A stretch of DNA of 38,960 nt from assembly GCA_023249635.1 (NCBI GenBank), contig JAHFCH010000038.1, forward strand, positions 1-38,960. Direction: 5' to 3'. The translations under genes were made by a program, and so were the position numbers. The notes beneath the pieces were generated by a model that worked only from the letters and a program-made list of their open reading frames with translations, made no database searches and was not told the DNA's origin. Below are positions 3,166 to 10,318 of this stretch, piece by piece; within the stretch, counting starts at the first letter, position 1; each line of letters begins with the position of its first letter. The stretch comes from Fibrobacterota bacterium. GTDB lineage: Bacteria > Fibrobacterota > Fibrobacteria > UBA11236.

Positions 3166-5652
3166 ATGGATGCGGGAACGTCACAGGCATCGGCCCGAAC
3201 GCGCAAGGCGGCTTGGGTCAGCCCTGTTGCGTTGACCGGCGCCTTGCTTCTCTTCCTCGTCCTTCTGGATTCCCGCCTCGGCCCCATCCCTCCCCCGGCC
3301 CGCTTCTTCAGCCCCTTCTCCGGGTTTTGGCGCAACGCCGAGCCCTTCGGCAGCTCGGATGATCAACTGCTCGCCCCGGGTCTCTTTGAAACGGTAAGCG
3401 TGGTTTTCGATCGTCGCCGCGTGCCGCATATCTTCGCCCAGAACGCCCACGATCTCTTTTTCGCCCAGGGGTACGTAACCGCGCGCGATCGCCTGTGGCA
3501 GATGGAAGTGCAGGCCATGTCGGCGGCGGGACGGCTCTCCGAGATCCTCGGGCCCGGGCTCATCGAGCATGATCGTTTCCAACGCCGCCTCGGTATCCCC
3601 CAGGCCGTGGAGCGCTCCCTGGAACTGTCCAAGAAGGACGATGAATCCTGGCTGGCCATGCAGGCATACGCCGACGGAGTCAACGCTTGGATCAACAACC
3701 TCGATCCCGAAGACTATCCCCTGGAATACAAGCTGCTCGACTACGCGCCGTCGCATTGGGCGCCCGCCAACACGGCTCTCATGCTGAAGAACATGCAATG
3801 GACGCTTTCCGGCGGCGGGGATGATCTGCCGTTGACCAATACCATGGCCCGCCTGGGTCGCGAATTCGTGGGCCGCTTCTTCCCGTTGCGCGTGCCCGAG
3901 GTGCCGACCATCATCCCGGCGGGCACGGCTTGGGATACCGCCGCGCCGCCGGCTCCCGCCCCCATGCCCCGCATCGTCCCGCCCACCTTGCTTCCCATGC
4001 CCGTGGATACGCTGCCGCATGCCGTGCCGCCCAAGCGGCCCGACCCAGGTAATGGCAGCAACAACTTCGTAGTGGCAGGAAGCCGCACCGCCGGCGGCCA
4101 TCCCATCCTCGCCAATGATCCCCATCTGGATTTGGGGCTGCCTTCGCTTTGGTATGAGGTGCAGCTTTCCGCGCCCGGCATGGGCGTGTATGGCGTTTCC
4201 CTGCCGGGAGCGCCGGCTGTCATCATCGGCTTCAACCGCAAGATCGCCTGGGGCGTGACCAACGGGAATGACGACGTGCTGGATTGGTACCGCGTGACCT
4301 TCAAGGACGCGACCATGGCCGAGTACATGTACGGCGGCCAATGGCGCCCGACCCATTCCGAGGTGGAGGCCATCAAGGTGCGCGGCGGGAAAACCGTACT
4401 CGACACGGTGATCTATACCCATCAAGGTCCGGTGGCCTTGAAGGATCAGGAGAAACCCGCCACCCGTAATTCCCCCGCCATGCACGCTCTGCGTTGGCTG
4501 GCCCTGGATGCCTCCGACGAGTTGCTGGCCTTCCTGCGCATCATGAAGGCCGGGAATTACGCCGAGTTCTCCGCTGGCTTGGAGCCCTTCCATTGCCCCT
4601 CCCAGAATTTCGCCTTCGCCGCCGCCGATGGCGACATTGCCCTATTCCACCATGGGCTTTTCCCGCGCAAGTGGAAAGGCCAGGGGCGTTTCACCATGGA
4701 CGGCTCCGAGCCCGGCAACGATTGGTCGGGATGGTTGCCGCGCCGCGACGAACCCGTTTCCCGCAATCCCGCCCGCGGCTGGTTGTTTTCCGCCAACCAG
4801 GATCCGGTCGATTCCACCTATCCTTTCTACCTGGGCGCGCAATGGTTGAACGGCGCGCGCCCGCGCCGCTTGGCCCACCTGCTTGCCGACGCCGATTCCT
4901 TGACCCCGGACGGCGCCTTCGCGATTCTCCAGGACGAATATGATCTGCATGCCTCCGACGTATTGCCCGCCCTGCTGCCGCGCATAGCCGGCCTCACGCT
5001 CTCGTCCGAGGATTCCGCCGCCCGCAAGGAGCTGGCGGCCTGGGATTTCCGGCACGTTCCCGACGGGCGCGCCCCCGCGCTTTTCGACAAATGGTGGAGC
5101 CTGCTGTACCGGACCATCTGGGCCGACGAATTCGGCGGGGACAGCCTGCATTATCAATGGCCGTCCAAGGATCGCACCCGCAAGATGATCCTCGAAGAGC
5201 CGGAAGCGGAATGGTTCGAGGACATCTCAACCCTATCCCATGAGTCCTTGCCTATCCTGGTGGCGCGCACCTTTCGTGAAGCCTGCGCCGCGCTCAAACG
5301 CAGGCCGGGAGGCGCGCCTACCTGGTCCGCTTACCGTCCCGTCGATGTGCGGCATCTGGCGCATATCGATGCCTTCGGGGATTTGGGCGTCGCGGCGGGC
5401 GGTTGCGGCGATTGCGTAAACGCGATGAAAGGGACCCATGGCCCCTCGTGGCGCATGGTAGTGGAAATGGCGGGGGAACCCCGCGGTTACGGGATCTATC
5501 CCGGCGGGCAATCCGGCAATCCCGGTTCGCCCCATTACGATGAGTTCATCTCCGACTGGGCCGCGGGCCGTCACTACGATCTCGATTACCTTGATGATCC
5601 GGGATCCGCCGGCAAGGAAGCCGCCTACCGCCTGCAATTGAGGGGCAAGTAG
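3166..5652 (+). CDS. Penicillin acylase family (S45) N-terminal nucleophile hydrolase
   Basis: This 828-residue precursor has the usual S45 length. A hydrophobic segment near the N-terminus (about residues 18-33) should send it across or anchor it in the inner membrane. The mature beta-subunit start is visible as GNGSNNFVV: Ser298 is the expected autoprocessing site and nucleophile, with Asn-Asn after it as in the family. The C-terminal GGQSGNPGSPHYDEF is also typical. Family members cleave amide bonds of penicillins, cephalosporins, acyl-homoserine lactones or other N-acyl compounds; which one cannot be said here. The frame is open to 3040, inside the kinase gene, but ATG 3166 is the first start outside it and precedes the signal segment. 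It sits between the kinase and a small membrane protein in one operon. Confidence 0.92.
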   Translation: MDAGTSQASARTRKAAWVSPVALTGALLLFLVLLDSRLGPIPPPARFFSPFSGFWRNAEPFGSSDDQLLAPGLFETVSVVFDRRRVPHIFAQNAHDLFFAQGYVTARDRLWQMEVQAMSAAGRLSEILGPGLIEHDRFQRRLGIPQAVERSLELSKKDDESWLAMQAYADGVNAWINNLDPEDYPLEYKLLDYAPSHWAPANTALMLKNMQWTLSGGGDDLPLTNTMARLGREFVGRFFPLRVPEVPTIIPAGTAWDTAAPPAPAPMPRIVPPTLLPMPVDTLPHAVPPKRPDPGNGSNNFVVAGSRTAGGHPILANDPHLDLGLPSLWYEVQLSAPGMGVYGVSLPGAPAVIIGFNRKIAWGVTNGNDDVLDWYRVTFKDATMAEYMYGGQWRPTHSEVEAIKVRGGKTVLDTVIYTHQGPVALKDQEKPATRNSPAMHALRWLALDASDELLAFLRIMKAGNYAEFSAGLEPFHCPSQNFAFAAADGDIALFHHGLFPRKWKGQGRFTMDGSEPGNDWSGWLPRRDEPVSRNPARGWLFSANQDPVDSTYPFYLGAQWLNGARPRRLAHLLADADSLTPDGAFAILQDEYDLHASDVLPALLPRIAGLTLSSEDSAARKELAAWDFRHVPDGRAPALFDKWWSLLYRTIWADEFGGDSLHYQWPSKDRTRKMILEEPEAEWFEDISTLSHESLPILVARTFREACAALKRRPGGAPTWSAYRPVDVRHLAHIDAFGDLGVAAGGCGDCVNAMKGTHGPSWRMVVEMAGEPRGYGIYPGGQSGNPGSPHYDEFISDWAAGRHYDLDYLDDPGSAGKEAAYRLQLRGK

Positions 5653-6222
5653 ATGGCGGCCTTGATGCTTTTCGCGGCGGCCTGGGCCGGGGGCTATCTG
5701 TTCCCCTGGTGGTGGCCCGCCTTGGCGGGATACGCCTTGGGCCTATGGCGTCCCCGCAGCGCCGCGGGCGCGTTCTGTTCCGGATTCGCCGGCGTCGCGG
5801 CGGCCTGGGCCTCGGCCGCCGCGGTCCAGGATCTACGCAACCACCATATCCTCGCGGTCCGCATCGCCCAGGTTTTCCATATCCCCGGGGGAGGTCCCTT
5901 GGCGGTTACCGCCCTGCTGGGAGGCCTGATGGGCGGCCTCGCCTGCCTGGCTGGTTACTCCCTGCGCGCATGGCTATGGCCGCGCAGCGCTCCGGCCGCC
6001 CCCGCGCCGGTTCCCGAGGCGGCCAGGAAAGCCGCCGCCGATACCGCGGGATCGGACAATGCCGTGGCCGGAGAACCCTTGCGCGGGGTGGACGATGCCG
6101 GCCTACCGATGGAGCCGGAGCCCGAACCCGAAGTTGCGCCTGCACCGGAGCCCGATCCGGACCCGATCCCGGATACCGAGACCACGGGCGACGGGGACGA
6201 CCCCGAACCGCCCCGGCCCTGA
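5653..6222 (+). CDS. Small membrane protein with acidic Pro/Glu-rich tail
   Basis: This 189-residue protein starts directly after the S45 stop codon, with GAGGGGCAAG just upstream. Residues 1-115 hold about four hydrophobic segments. The pattern around LRNHHILAVRIAQVF and VTALLGGLMGGLACLAGYSLR recalls uncharacterised small membrane proteins seen in Bacteroidota, from memory only. Residues 116-189 are Ala/Pro-rich, then strongly acidic (repeated PEPE and PDPDP), and probably disordered. The last 268 bases lie antisense to the tail of the convergent EamA gene. Being packed against the S45 gene suggests a linked role, but no function can be given. Confidence 0.7.
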   Translation: MAALMLFAAAWAGGYLFPWWWPALAGYALGLWRPRSAAGAFCSGFAGVAAAWASAAAVQDLRNHHILAVRIAQVFHIPGGGPLAVTALLGGLMGGLACLAGYSLRAWLWPRSAPAAPAPVPEAARKAAADTAGSDNAVAGEPLRGVDDAGLPMEPEPEPEVAPAPEPDPDPIPDTETTGDGDDPEPPRP

Positions 6223-7178
6223 TCCGGCGGGGGTCCCGCGGGTTTGCTCCCGCCCAATCCCAACTTCAAGGTTCCCGCCACCACCAGTCCCAAACCCAGG
6301 ATTTGCATCCAGCCCGCATGCTCGCCCAACAACGATCCGGAAAGGATCAAGGTCGAGACCGGTCCCACGCTGCTCGCCACCGCACTCCGTCCCGCGCCCA
6401 CCAGGCGCACACCGTACCCGTACAGATAAACGGGGATGACGTTGCAGAACACGGCGGTGAAAGCCGCGATCCACAGCACCGGACGCGGCTGGGCCAGATC
6501 CGACATCGGATGAGTCAGGAAGAATTGAGCGAGTACGAACATGAAGGAAGCGGCCATGCATCCCGCCGCGAAGAATGCGGGCCCATAACGATGCACCAGC
6601 CGTCCCTGCCATACCAGGAACAAGGCATAAAACACCGCGCTCGCGAATACCAGGGCGCCTCCGGTCCACGGATGCCCGCCCGCGCCCAGGGACGCCTCGC
6701 CGCCGAAGGAGAGCGCGATACCGGCGTACGAGAGCGCCAAGGGGAAGTAAAGCATCCGCTTGATGGGTTTACGGAAAATGAGCGCGGAAAAGATCACGAC
6801 CAACGTCGGATACACGTAGAGAATCAAGCGTTCCGTGCCCGCCGTGACGTATTGCAATCCCACCATGTCGAAGATGCTGGCCAGGTAATAGCCGGAAAAT
6901 CCCAACCATACGATGATGCCGAGATCCTTGCGTCCCAAAGGCGCAAGACGGCGCGCATCGGGCCCGAAGAAGCGGGCGAGGAACGGCCAGATGAAGAAAG
7001 GCAGGGAGAATATCCCGCGCAGGGACTGCAGCACGATCGGGGCCGTCCCGTACCGGTAGCACAGTTTGAAGAATACCGATTTTGCCGAGAACAGCACGGA
7101 GGCGGCCACCACGGCGGCTATGCCCAGCTTGATGTTCCCGTTCCCCTGCGGCGCGGCCGCGGCCCTTTGCGAATCCAT
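5955..7178 (-). CDS. EamA/DMT-superfamily transporter with long C-terminal extension
   Basis: This is a drug/metabolite transporter family protein of 407 residues. About ten hydrophobic segments form two EamA halves (first about residues 20-150, second about 160-295; the second ends GEHAGWMQILGLGLVVAGTLKLG). Relatives export or import amino acids, nucleosides or other small metabolites across the inner membrane. Family members usually stop near 300 residues; here the frame runs on for about 100 Gly/Ser-rich residues antisense to the convergent gene. The ATG at 7178 is preferred over an in-frame TTG at 7199 inside the terminator U-tract, because GGGGAAAGGG lies just before it. The only promoter I see is beyond the terminator at 7198-7227, so expression probably depends on read-through. 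Confidence 0.88.
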   Translation of the reverse strand: MDSQRAAAAPQGNGNIKLGIAAVVAASVLFSAKSVFFKLCYRYGTAPIVLQSLRGIFSLPFFIWPFLARFFGPDARRLAPLGRKDLGIIVWLGFSGYYLASIFDMVGLQYVTAGTERLILYVYPTLVVIFSALIFRKPIKRMLYFPLALSYAGIALSFGGEASLGAGGHPWTGGALVFASAVFYALFLVWQGRLVHRYGPAFFAAGCMAASFMFVLAQFFLTHPMSDLAQPRPVLWIAAFTAVFCNVIPVYLYGYGVRLVGAGRSAVASSVGPVSTLILSGSLLGEHAGWMQILGLGLVVAGTLKLGLGGSKPAGPPPDQGRGGSGSSPSPVVSVSGIGSGSGSGAGATSGSGSGSIGRPASSTPRKGSPATALSDPAVSAAAFLAASGTGAGAAGALRGHSHARRE

Positions 7179-7197
7179 GATCCCTTTCCCCGGAAGC

Positions 7198-7227
7198 AAA
7201 AAAAAGGCCCGCTCAGATGAGCGGGCC
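7198..7227 (-). terminator. Intrinsic terminator 20 bases before the EamA start (putative attenuator)
   Basis: On the minus strand a perfect 9-bp stem GGCCCGCTC/GAGCGGGCC with loop ATCT is followed by eight T residues. Two flanking A-T pairs can extend the stem. It points in the same direction as the EamA gene and ends 20 bases before its ATG. The 5' arm CCCGCTCA can instead pair with TGAGCGGG upstream in the leader (7267-7274), which would undo the terminator. Confidence 0.9.
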
Positions 7228-7254
7228 TTCCTTTGATCCGGTATTGCTATCGAA

Positions 7255-7353
7255 TCAGTGCATGCACCCGCTCATTGCGCCGTGAATTCGCTTCACCTGC
7301 CAGGCTTTGGCCATGACGGGATGGAGGGTTAGGACGGCGGAAAGGCAGGTCAT
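7255..7353 (-). CDS. Putative 32-residue leader peptide
   Basis: This short ORF (MTCLSAVLTLHPVMAKA...) starts with an ATG exactly where the upstream consensus promoter should begin transcription, so its mRNA would be leaderless. It ends in TGA before the terminator. Codons 27-29 contain the antiterminator sequence, so a ribosome reaching the stop would cover it and favour termination, while one stalled earlier would leave it free. The peptide is rich in Met (4), His (3) and Cys (2), with one Trp. The first 17 residues are hydrophobic and end in AKA, so a tiny secreted peptide is an alternative. No coding evidence exists beyond position and frame. Confidence 0.4.
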   Translation of the reverse strand: MTCLSAVLTLHPVMAKAWQVKRIHGAMSGCMH

Positions 7354-7360
7354 GGATCCA

Positions 7361-7388
7361 AGTATATGCAAAAGCGCTCGCTTGTCAA
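7361..7388 (-). promoter_or_regulatory. Consensus sigma-70-type promoter (TTGACA-16-TATACT)
   Basis: On the minus strand TTGACA (7388-7383) is separated by 16 bases from TATACT (7366-7361). The start point would fall at 7354-7353. It lies just after the stop codon of the upstream gene (7404) and drives the leader and EamA gene. No other site in the window shows such a close match to the classical consensus. Confidence 0.75.
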
Positions 7389-9239: not shown

Positions 9240-10318
9240 ATGCCCAGGATAGCCTTGCTCGGTTGCGGCGGTTTCATCGGCAGCCATTGCCTGGACGCCT
9301 TCCTGGCCGATCCCGACACCTTCGTGGAGGGCTGGGACTGGTCCCCGGCCAAGATCCTCTCCCACCTCGCCCAACGCAATTTCCGTTTCCATGCGGGCGA
9401 TATCTACACCCAGCCCGATCTCGCGGACCGCCTGGCCCAAAGCGATGTGGTCATCAGCCTGGCGGCCATCTGCAATCCTTCCCAGTACAATACCCGCGCC
9501 TTGGACGTGATCGACAGCAATTTCATCCAGGCCCGAGGATAGCCGAACTCTGCGCCGAACGCGGGAAATGGCTCGTCCAGTTCTCCACCAGCGAAGTCTA
9601 CGGACAGACGCTGGCGCATTGGACCGGCGCCGAAGATCCCAAACCCGATCAATACGAGATGGACGAAGGCGAAACGCCGTTGTTGCTGGGACCCGTGACC
9701 AGCCAGCGTTGGAGCTATGCCTGCGCCAAGCAATTGCTGGAGCGCTACGTGTACGCCTTGCATAAGGAAAAGGGCCTGGATTTCACCTTGGTGCGTCCGT
9801 TCAACTTCCTGGGACCGCGGATGGATTTCCTTCCCGGCCGCGAGGGCGAAGGCCTGCCGCGGGTTTTGGCCTGTTTCACCGGGGCCTTGCTCGACAAGCG
9901 TCCCCTGCCCTTGGTTGATGGCGGGCATTCGCGCCGTACCTTCCTGGCGGTCGAAGAGGCGGTCAAGGCGCTTTCCCTGATGCTTGATCAACCCGGAATG
10001 GCCAAGAACCAGATTTTCAATCTGGGCAATCCCGCCAACGAAACCACCATCCGAGGGCTGGCCGAATTGATGCGGACCGTTGCCGCCGAGATAACCGGCG
10101 ACGAAAGCTACCGCTCCCTGGCCCTGGAATACGTTTCCTCCGAGGCTTTCTACGGCGAGGGATATGCCGATTCTGATCGTCGGATGCCGCGCATTGACAA
10201 GGCTTTGCGCCTGCTGGGATGGGAACCGCAAAGGGATTTGCGCGACATTCTCCGCCGCACCTTGGAGCACGCCTTCGCGACCCATCGTCCCGGTCCGGAC
10301 ACCGCCGCGCGAACCTGA
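9240..10318 (+). pseudogene. UDP-apiose/UDP-xylose synthase-like SDR, frameshifted
   Basis: Two frames together encode one protein resembling plant UDP-apiose/xylose synthase and the decarboxylase domain of ArnA. Frame one (9240-9542) holds the Rossmann loop GCGGFIGSH, SLAAICNPSQYNT and VIDSNFIQA. The second frame continues with RIAELCAERGKW, FSTSEVYG, RWSYACAKQLLERYV (YxxxK), LVRPFNFLGPRMDFLPG, FNLGNPANETT and FYGEGYADSDRR. The break lies at about 9525-9540. One extra base there would give an uninterrupted frame of 359 residues and the spacing expected from the plant enzyme. Family members decarboxylate UDP-glucuronate, with or without ring contraction. It may be a sequencing error or a recent mutation; no -1 slippery heptamer is visible. 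Confidence 0.85.

Follow-up and report, generated by a model that had tools for sequence, protein, structure and literature searches.

A probable tryptophan-codon attenuator upstream of an EamA-family transporter gene in Fibrobacterota

Layout of the EamA locus

The window analysed here is a stretch of 38,960 nucleotides that forms part of a 6.75-Mb Fibrobacterota assembly (labelled G000). On its minus strand it carries a gene for a transporter of the EamA/DMT family, preceded by a leader of about 155 nt. The features of this locus, in the order in which they would be transcribed, are the following.

7361–7388, minus strand: near-consensus promoter, TTGACA (7388–7383), 16-nt spacer, TATACT (7366–7361)
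7255–7353, minus strand: leaderless upstream open reading frame (uORF) of 32 codons, proposed to encode the leader peptide MTCLSAVLTLHPVMAKAWQVKRIHGAMSGCMH, followed by a stop codon; its ATG (7353) lies 7 nt after the −10 box
7300–7302, minus strand: TGG, codon 18 of the uORF and the proposed regulatory Trp codon, 27 nt before the antiterminator strand
7267–7275, minus strand: antiterminator 5′ strand ATGAGCGGG, within the end of the uORF and complementary to CCCGCTCAT (7225–7217) at all 9 positions
7234–7257, minus strand: small hairpin TGATTCG...CGGATCA within the antiterminator loop, starting at the uORF stop codon; present in most members of the genus and variable outside it
7198–7227, minus strand: intrinsic terminator GGCCCGCTC (7227–7219)-ATCT-GAGCGGGCC (7214–7206)-T8 (7205–7198), ending about 19–20 nt before the EamA ATG
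7182–7191, minus strand: Shine–Dalgarno-like purine-rich stretch GGGGAAAGGG before the EamA ATG
5955–7178, minus strand: EamA/DMT-family transporter gene, the proposed regulated gene (Pfam EamA PF00892, E = 1.9e-26), with its ATG at 7178

The promoter is the sole promoter-like site between positions 5000 and 10000, and its letters are as given in a preliminary description of the locus. That description also placed a strong intrinsic terminator shortly before the EamA ATG, which we confirm at 7227–7198, and a perfect complement of the terminator 5′ arm, which exists and, at 9 nt, is one base longer than reported. It overlooked the leaderless uORF at 7353–7255 and the Trp codon within it. The predicted transcript start lies at or next to the ATG of this uORF, and the window leader has no room for a Shine–Dalgarno site ahead of it. 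Before the EamA gene, several relatives have AAGGAG at the position of GGGGAAAGGG.

The EamA open reading frame has a Gly/Ser-rich C-terminal extension (window 5955–6222) that overlaps, in antisense, the end of a plus-strand open reading frame at 5653–6222. A convergent neighbour with a similar start sequence stands at the same place in three other genomes (G001, G002 and G005).

Conservation and alternative pairing of the leader

Close homologues of the EamA gene occur in 13 of the 168 Fibrobacterota genomes searched, and the leader is present in every one of the 13. All follow a common plan, which comprises the leaderless uORF, a Trp codon, the antiterminator strand, an invariant GCCCGCTC and an intrinsic terminator. 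A −35/−10 pair lies 6–9 nt upstream of the uORF ATG in each homologue, and the uORF is found at the same place throughout, with 30–36 codons (60 in one). A GTDB scan of 80 loci found the plan at both Fibrobacteria loci and at none of the 78 outside Fibrobacterota. The EamA genes of the genus Fibrobacter are distant paralogues, and a leader detector run over all fetched loci recovered no leader at them.

The 5′ arm of the terminator doubles as the 3′ strand of the antiterminator, such that the two structures share a strand and are mutually exclusive. Both the alternative pairing anticipated in the preliminary description and the terminator are retained at all 13 homologous loci, with the complementarity between the uORF end and the 5′ arm weak in a few; the antiterminator on its own is weak in G005 and G001 (p 0.1–0.26). 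Within the 5′ arm, the segment GCCCGCTC is identical in 13 of 13, and the 3′ arm deviates from a perfect complement in seven. For the window genome alone, a 9-nt complement arises in about 0.2% of dinucleotide shuffles. Across the 13 homologues, the pairing exceeds dinucleotide shuffles in run length (combined Fisher p = 1.6e-7) and in duplex energy (1.2e-8); these values assume independent sequences, which the six leaders of one genus are not. With one sequence for each of five lineages, the fair comparison, p is 2e-4 and 2e-5, respectively. The reading frame of the complementary GAGCGG changes from genus to genus (M-S-G as opposed to G-A-A or G-A-V), which indicates that this segment is conserved as RNA and not as peptide.

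A terminator is expected after the upstream gene at 9440–7404, and one account of the locus would be a plain terminator of that gene, or the unregulated leader of a constitutive promoter. Against it, the promoter separates that gene from the terminator, a second partner of the 5′ arm is conserved, and the same cassette recurs in G000 ahead of cimA and of one further gene; we give this account almost no weight.

The preliminary description left the choice between an attenuator and a riboswitch. A metabolite-binding riboswitch, with the uORF present by coincidence, would also be built from a leader with a terminator and an antiterminator, and the leader fold is more stable than all 200 shuffles (z = −4.24). 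The Rfam scan proposed there as a check returned no family at the gathering score over the window. A crossing-pair pseudoknot had been suggested for the leader, and its elements exist as letters (ACCTGCC/GGCAGGT and CGCCGT/ACGGCG) but are not conserved: the first crossing pair shrinks to a run of 2–4 nt in 11 of 12 relatives, and the sole other 7-nt run has different letters. Upstream of the antiterminator, both sequence and folds vary between homologues and no fold is conserved, whereas an open frame with a Trp codon persists in all 13. A riboswitch is thus highly improbable, and it is the attenuator half of the earlier proposal that stands; we are confident that the leader at 7388–7178 is an attenuator. 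When the leader was scanned against Rfam at a lax cut-off, all matches (Leu, Thr and Trp leaders, terminator-like small RNAs) fell below threshold, and none amounts to membership; the Trp_leader family (RF00513) scored 22.2 bits, short of its gathering score of 41, and no T-box matched either at the gathering score or in the lax scan.

Folding with a modelled ribosome is consistent with a switch governed by ribosome position. With the RNA masked to 12 nt beyond the Trp codon (the assumed footprint reaches about 13 nt downstream) and the transcript extended up to the 5′ arm, the minimum-free-energy fold pairs this arm with the antiterminator strand in 13 of 13 leaders; when the mask runs past the stop codon instead, all 13 leaders form the terminator. 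Under that assumed footprint, a stalled ribosome would therefore free the antiterminator strand in every leader and a ribosome at the stop would mask it. Of the two structures, the terminator has the greater equilibrium stability, so the switch would have to be kinetic, as is usual. In the absence of a ribosome, the RNA of the uORF itself sequesters the antiterminator strand in about half of the leaders, which would give termination by default.

The Trp codon and the candidate leader peptide

From its position and conservation, we propose the uORF at 7353–7255 as a candidate leader peptide. At least one TGG codon is present in the uORF of every homologue (one in ten, two in two and three in one, none of them adjacent), and the distance from TGG to the start of the antiterminator is 14–36 nt, usually 26–32; the lower extreme, merely 14 nt, belongs to G014. 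At the local Trp frequency of 2.2%, the chance of a Trp in the 10-codon window before the antiterminator is about 1e-9 for the 13 leaders and 3e-4 for the five lineages. Counted over all leader codons, Trp is modestly enriched (17 of 456; p = 0.02 at the same frequency). Ahead of the Trp codon, at window 7313–7296 (GGCCAAAGCCTGGCA), lies a small GGC-AAA-GCC hairpin, shared by G006 and much of the genus, that might make the polymerase pause and so keep it in step with the ribosome.

The peptides themselves drift fast, and across genera they have little in common besides Trp. Within the genus, changed codons are mostly nonsynonymous (10 versus 5, 16 versus 3 and 16 versus 4). Rapid drift with retention of Trp suits codon sensing and not a nascent-chain arrest motif. 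A TnaC-like nascent-peptide sensor of free tryptophan, coupled to a transporter that exports the excess, would explain a conserved Trp in the peptide. TnaC likewise needs a Trp residue, and export of aromatic amino acids is known from YddG-like proteins. However, a stall at the stop codon, as such a sensor would require, would hide the antiterminator and promote termination at this locus, the distance from Trp to the stop varies, and the residues next to Trp are not conserved across genera, all of which make this explanation very unlikely.

We consider it likely that the leader instead carries out ribosome-mediated transcription attenuation of the trp-leader type, sensing the supply of Trp-tRNA(Trp) and controlling the EamA transporter. 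Transcription would begin on or beside the uORF ATG, with immediate translation of the leaderless uORF by a ribosome. When Trp-tRNA(Trp) is plentiful, the ribosome would reach the stop codon and cover ATGAGCGGG, the terminator would form, and transcription would end before EamA. When charged tRNA(Trp) is scarce, the ribosome would wait at the TGG of codon 18, leaving ATGAGCGGG free to pair with CCCGCTCAT as the latter emerges; with these strands paired, no terminator would form and the transporter would be transcribed. The preliminary idea that the leader reports the substrate of the transporter is thereby plausible, with the qualification that the report would be indirect, through the charging of tRNA(Trp).

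Two features of these genomes count against a Trp attenuator. Most leaders hold a single Trp codon, fewer than typical trp leaders; consecutive Trp codons, which are typical of Trp-specific attenuators but do not strictly define them, are absent. In addition, trpE and trpB are present in these genomes, and where we looked for such a leader upstream of them we found none. As the biosynthetic genes lack the leader, the transporter would provide for scavenging under a control of its own, separate from that of synthesis.

The arrangement resembles the enterobacterial trpL attenuators (RF00513, Trp_leader) in its Trp-codon leader open reading frame, its antiterminator strand within the end of that frame, its terminator just before the gene and its reliance on ribosome position. 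It differs from them in that the EamA uORF is leaderless, longer and mostly limited to a single Trp codon, and in that the target is a transporter and not trp biosynthesis. A leaderless counterpart exists in Sinorhizobium meliloti, where the rnTrpL RNA (encoding peTrpL) begins with the ATG of a Trp-codon uORF and functions as a ribosome-dependent attenuator (PMC7298713). The likeness is one of plan, with no sequence relation expected: the S. meliloti peptide has 14 amino acids, precedes trpE(G), contains several consecutive Trp codons and belongs to another phylum.

Sister leaders and the role of the transporter

In nine genomes of the family, the window genome and eight relatives, a leaderless cassette with Ile-rich, Trp-free peptides lies directly before the citramalate synthase gene cimA. 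These leaders were found by a pattern search for the cassette, and not by the leaderless-promoter pattern; the leaderless promoter is matched in members of the genus, and loosely or not at all in four of the sister genus. The product of cimA, the first enzyme of an Ile pathway, matches TIGR00977 (641 bits against a cut-off of 450). A third set of leaderless attenuators follows the same plan. Representative loci are given below.

G000:C98:746–791, minus strand: cimA leader with an Ile-run peptide, for example MSQRLIAIIRIIIDSGRSGL; also L211, L202, L205, L213, L222, L223 and L225–L232
G000:C192:10973–10754, minus strand: third leaderless attenuator (L265); also L016, L199, L209, L210 and L214

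The cimA leaders share with the EamA leader the leaderless uORF, a GAGCGG-type antiterminator strand, the GCCCGCTC 5′ arm and the spacing, and differ in having runs of Ile codons in place of Trp and in controlling citramalate synthase. They serve as a control for codon content and argue for Trp more strongly than does its modest excess over all codons: Trp codons stand at the regulatory position in 13 of 13 EamA leaders, as in Trp-specific attenuators, and TGG is absent from all nine Ile leaders of cimA. Judged from these sequences, the codons of a leader in this clade indicate which amino acid the pathway concerns, and because Ile leaders precede a gene of an Ile pathway, the same logic suggests that the EamA protein serves Trp supply. 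The peptides of the third leader have 43–48 codons; W-R is conserved close to their start, most contain Cys, and A-M comes further on. The gene that follows has no Pfam or NCBIfam match and, by eye, resembles a degenerate methyltransferase.

The leaderless-promoter pattern matched 26 sites in G000, some of them by chance (the control rate is 15 compared with 26), and two of the matches fit the attenuator plan, namely the EamA leader and the third leader. Several ordinary genes of G000, including purC and DeoR-family regulators, also appear to be leaderless, starting 6–9 nt after a −10-like box (apparent loci are L257 (G000:C222:17672), L239, L240, L250 and L262), which makes leaderless translation plausible in this organism.

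We know of no Trp-codon logic in the bmrB leader of Bacillus subtilis. That leader resembles the present one in subjecting a transporter gene to leader-peptide attenuation, and differs in that its target, bmrCD, is a multidrug ABC transporter and its signal is ribosome-targeting antibiotics (PMC4191407). By analogy with bmrB–bmrCD and with the msrD leaders, the EamA leader could be a ribosome-mediated attenuator that senses translation inhibitors or a general slowing of ribosomes, with EamA a drug exporter and the Trp codon merely a slow or arrest-prone point. Its anatomy is compatible with this, many EamA proteins are exporters, most of the peptides have basic residues close to Trp, and multidrug transporters under leader-peptide attenuation exist (PMC4191407; PMC10314930). 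Against it, the fast-drifting peptide has no conserved arrest motif, the sole fixed feature is a Trp codon at a set distance from the antiterminator, and the sister leaders follow an amino acid pathway; we regard drug sensing as unlikely.

Named transporters show only sub-threshold similarity to the EamA protein, the nearest solved relative being YddG, at a weak level. The YddG family consists of amino acid exporters, and the weak similarity fits an amino acid substrate but does not fit the proposed direction of transport; one would not expect Trp starvation to raise the level of a YddG-type exporter, which counts against the Trp-attenuator reading. If the gene is induced on Trp starvation, the simplest interpretation is that its product takes up Trp or a precursor. 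Under Trp-sensing attenuation, then, a Trp-related transport function for the EamA protein is somewhat favoured; the substrate would probably be Trp or a Trp precursor, and the direction most likely uptake. More tentatively, and with slightly less than even confidence, we propose that one leaderless cassette (the GAGCGG uORF end and the GCCCGCTC arm) has been re-used before different Fibrobacterota genes with only the leader codons changed (Ile for cimA, Trp for EamA, and Cys, Trp and Met in the third leader), and that EamA mediates Trp-starvation-induced uptake of Trp or a precursor.

The attenuation mechanism itself is classic and already known; what is new is its occurrence before an EamA transporter in Fibrobacterota. 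Our literature search found no paper describing an EamA leader system and none on amino-acid attenuation in Fibrobacterota, so this appears to be the first description of such attenuation in the phylum; judged from titles and the opening lines of abstracts, no paper among those listed named an EamA Trp importer. Sequence alone rarely reveals the substrate of an EamA-type protein, and the leader supplies a probable signal, Trp supply, and hence a probable and testable substrate, for a transporter of this very large family. If the re-use of the cassette and the uptake reading are both true, EamA would be an importer from a superfamily better known for export. Together with the Ile leaders and the third type, the EamA leaders reveal a small leaderless regulon in a little-studied phylum, one that could be read from codon content phylum-wide, and their leaderless leader peptides tie attenuation to a form of initiation whose behaviour changes under stress.
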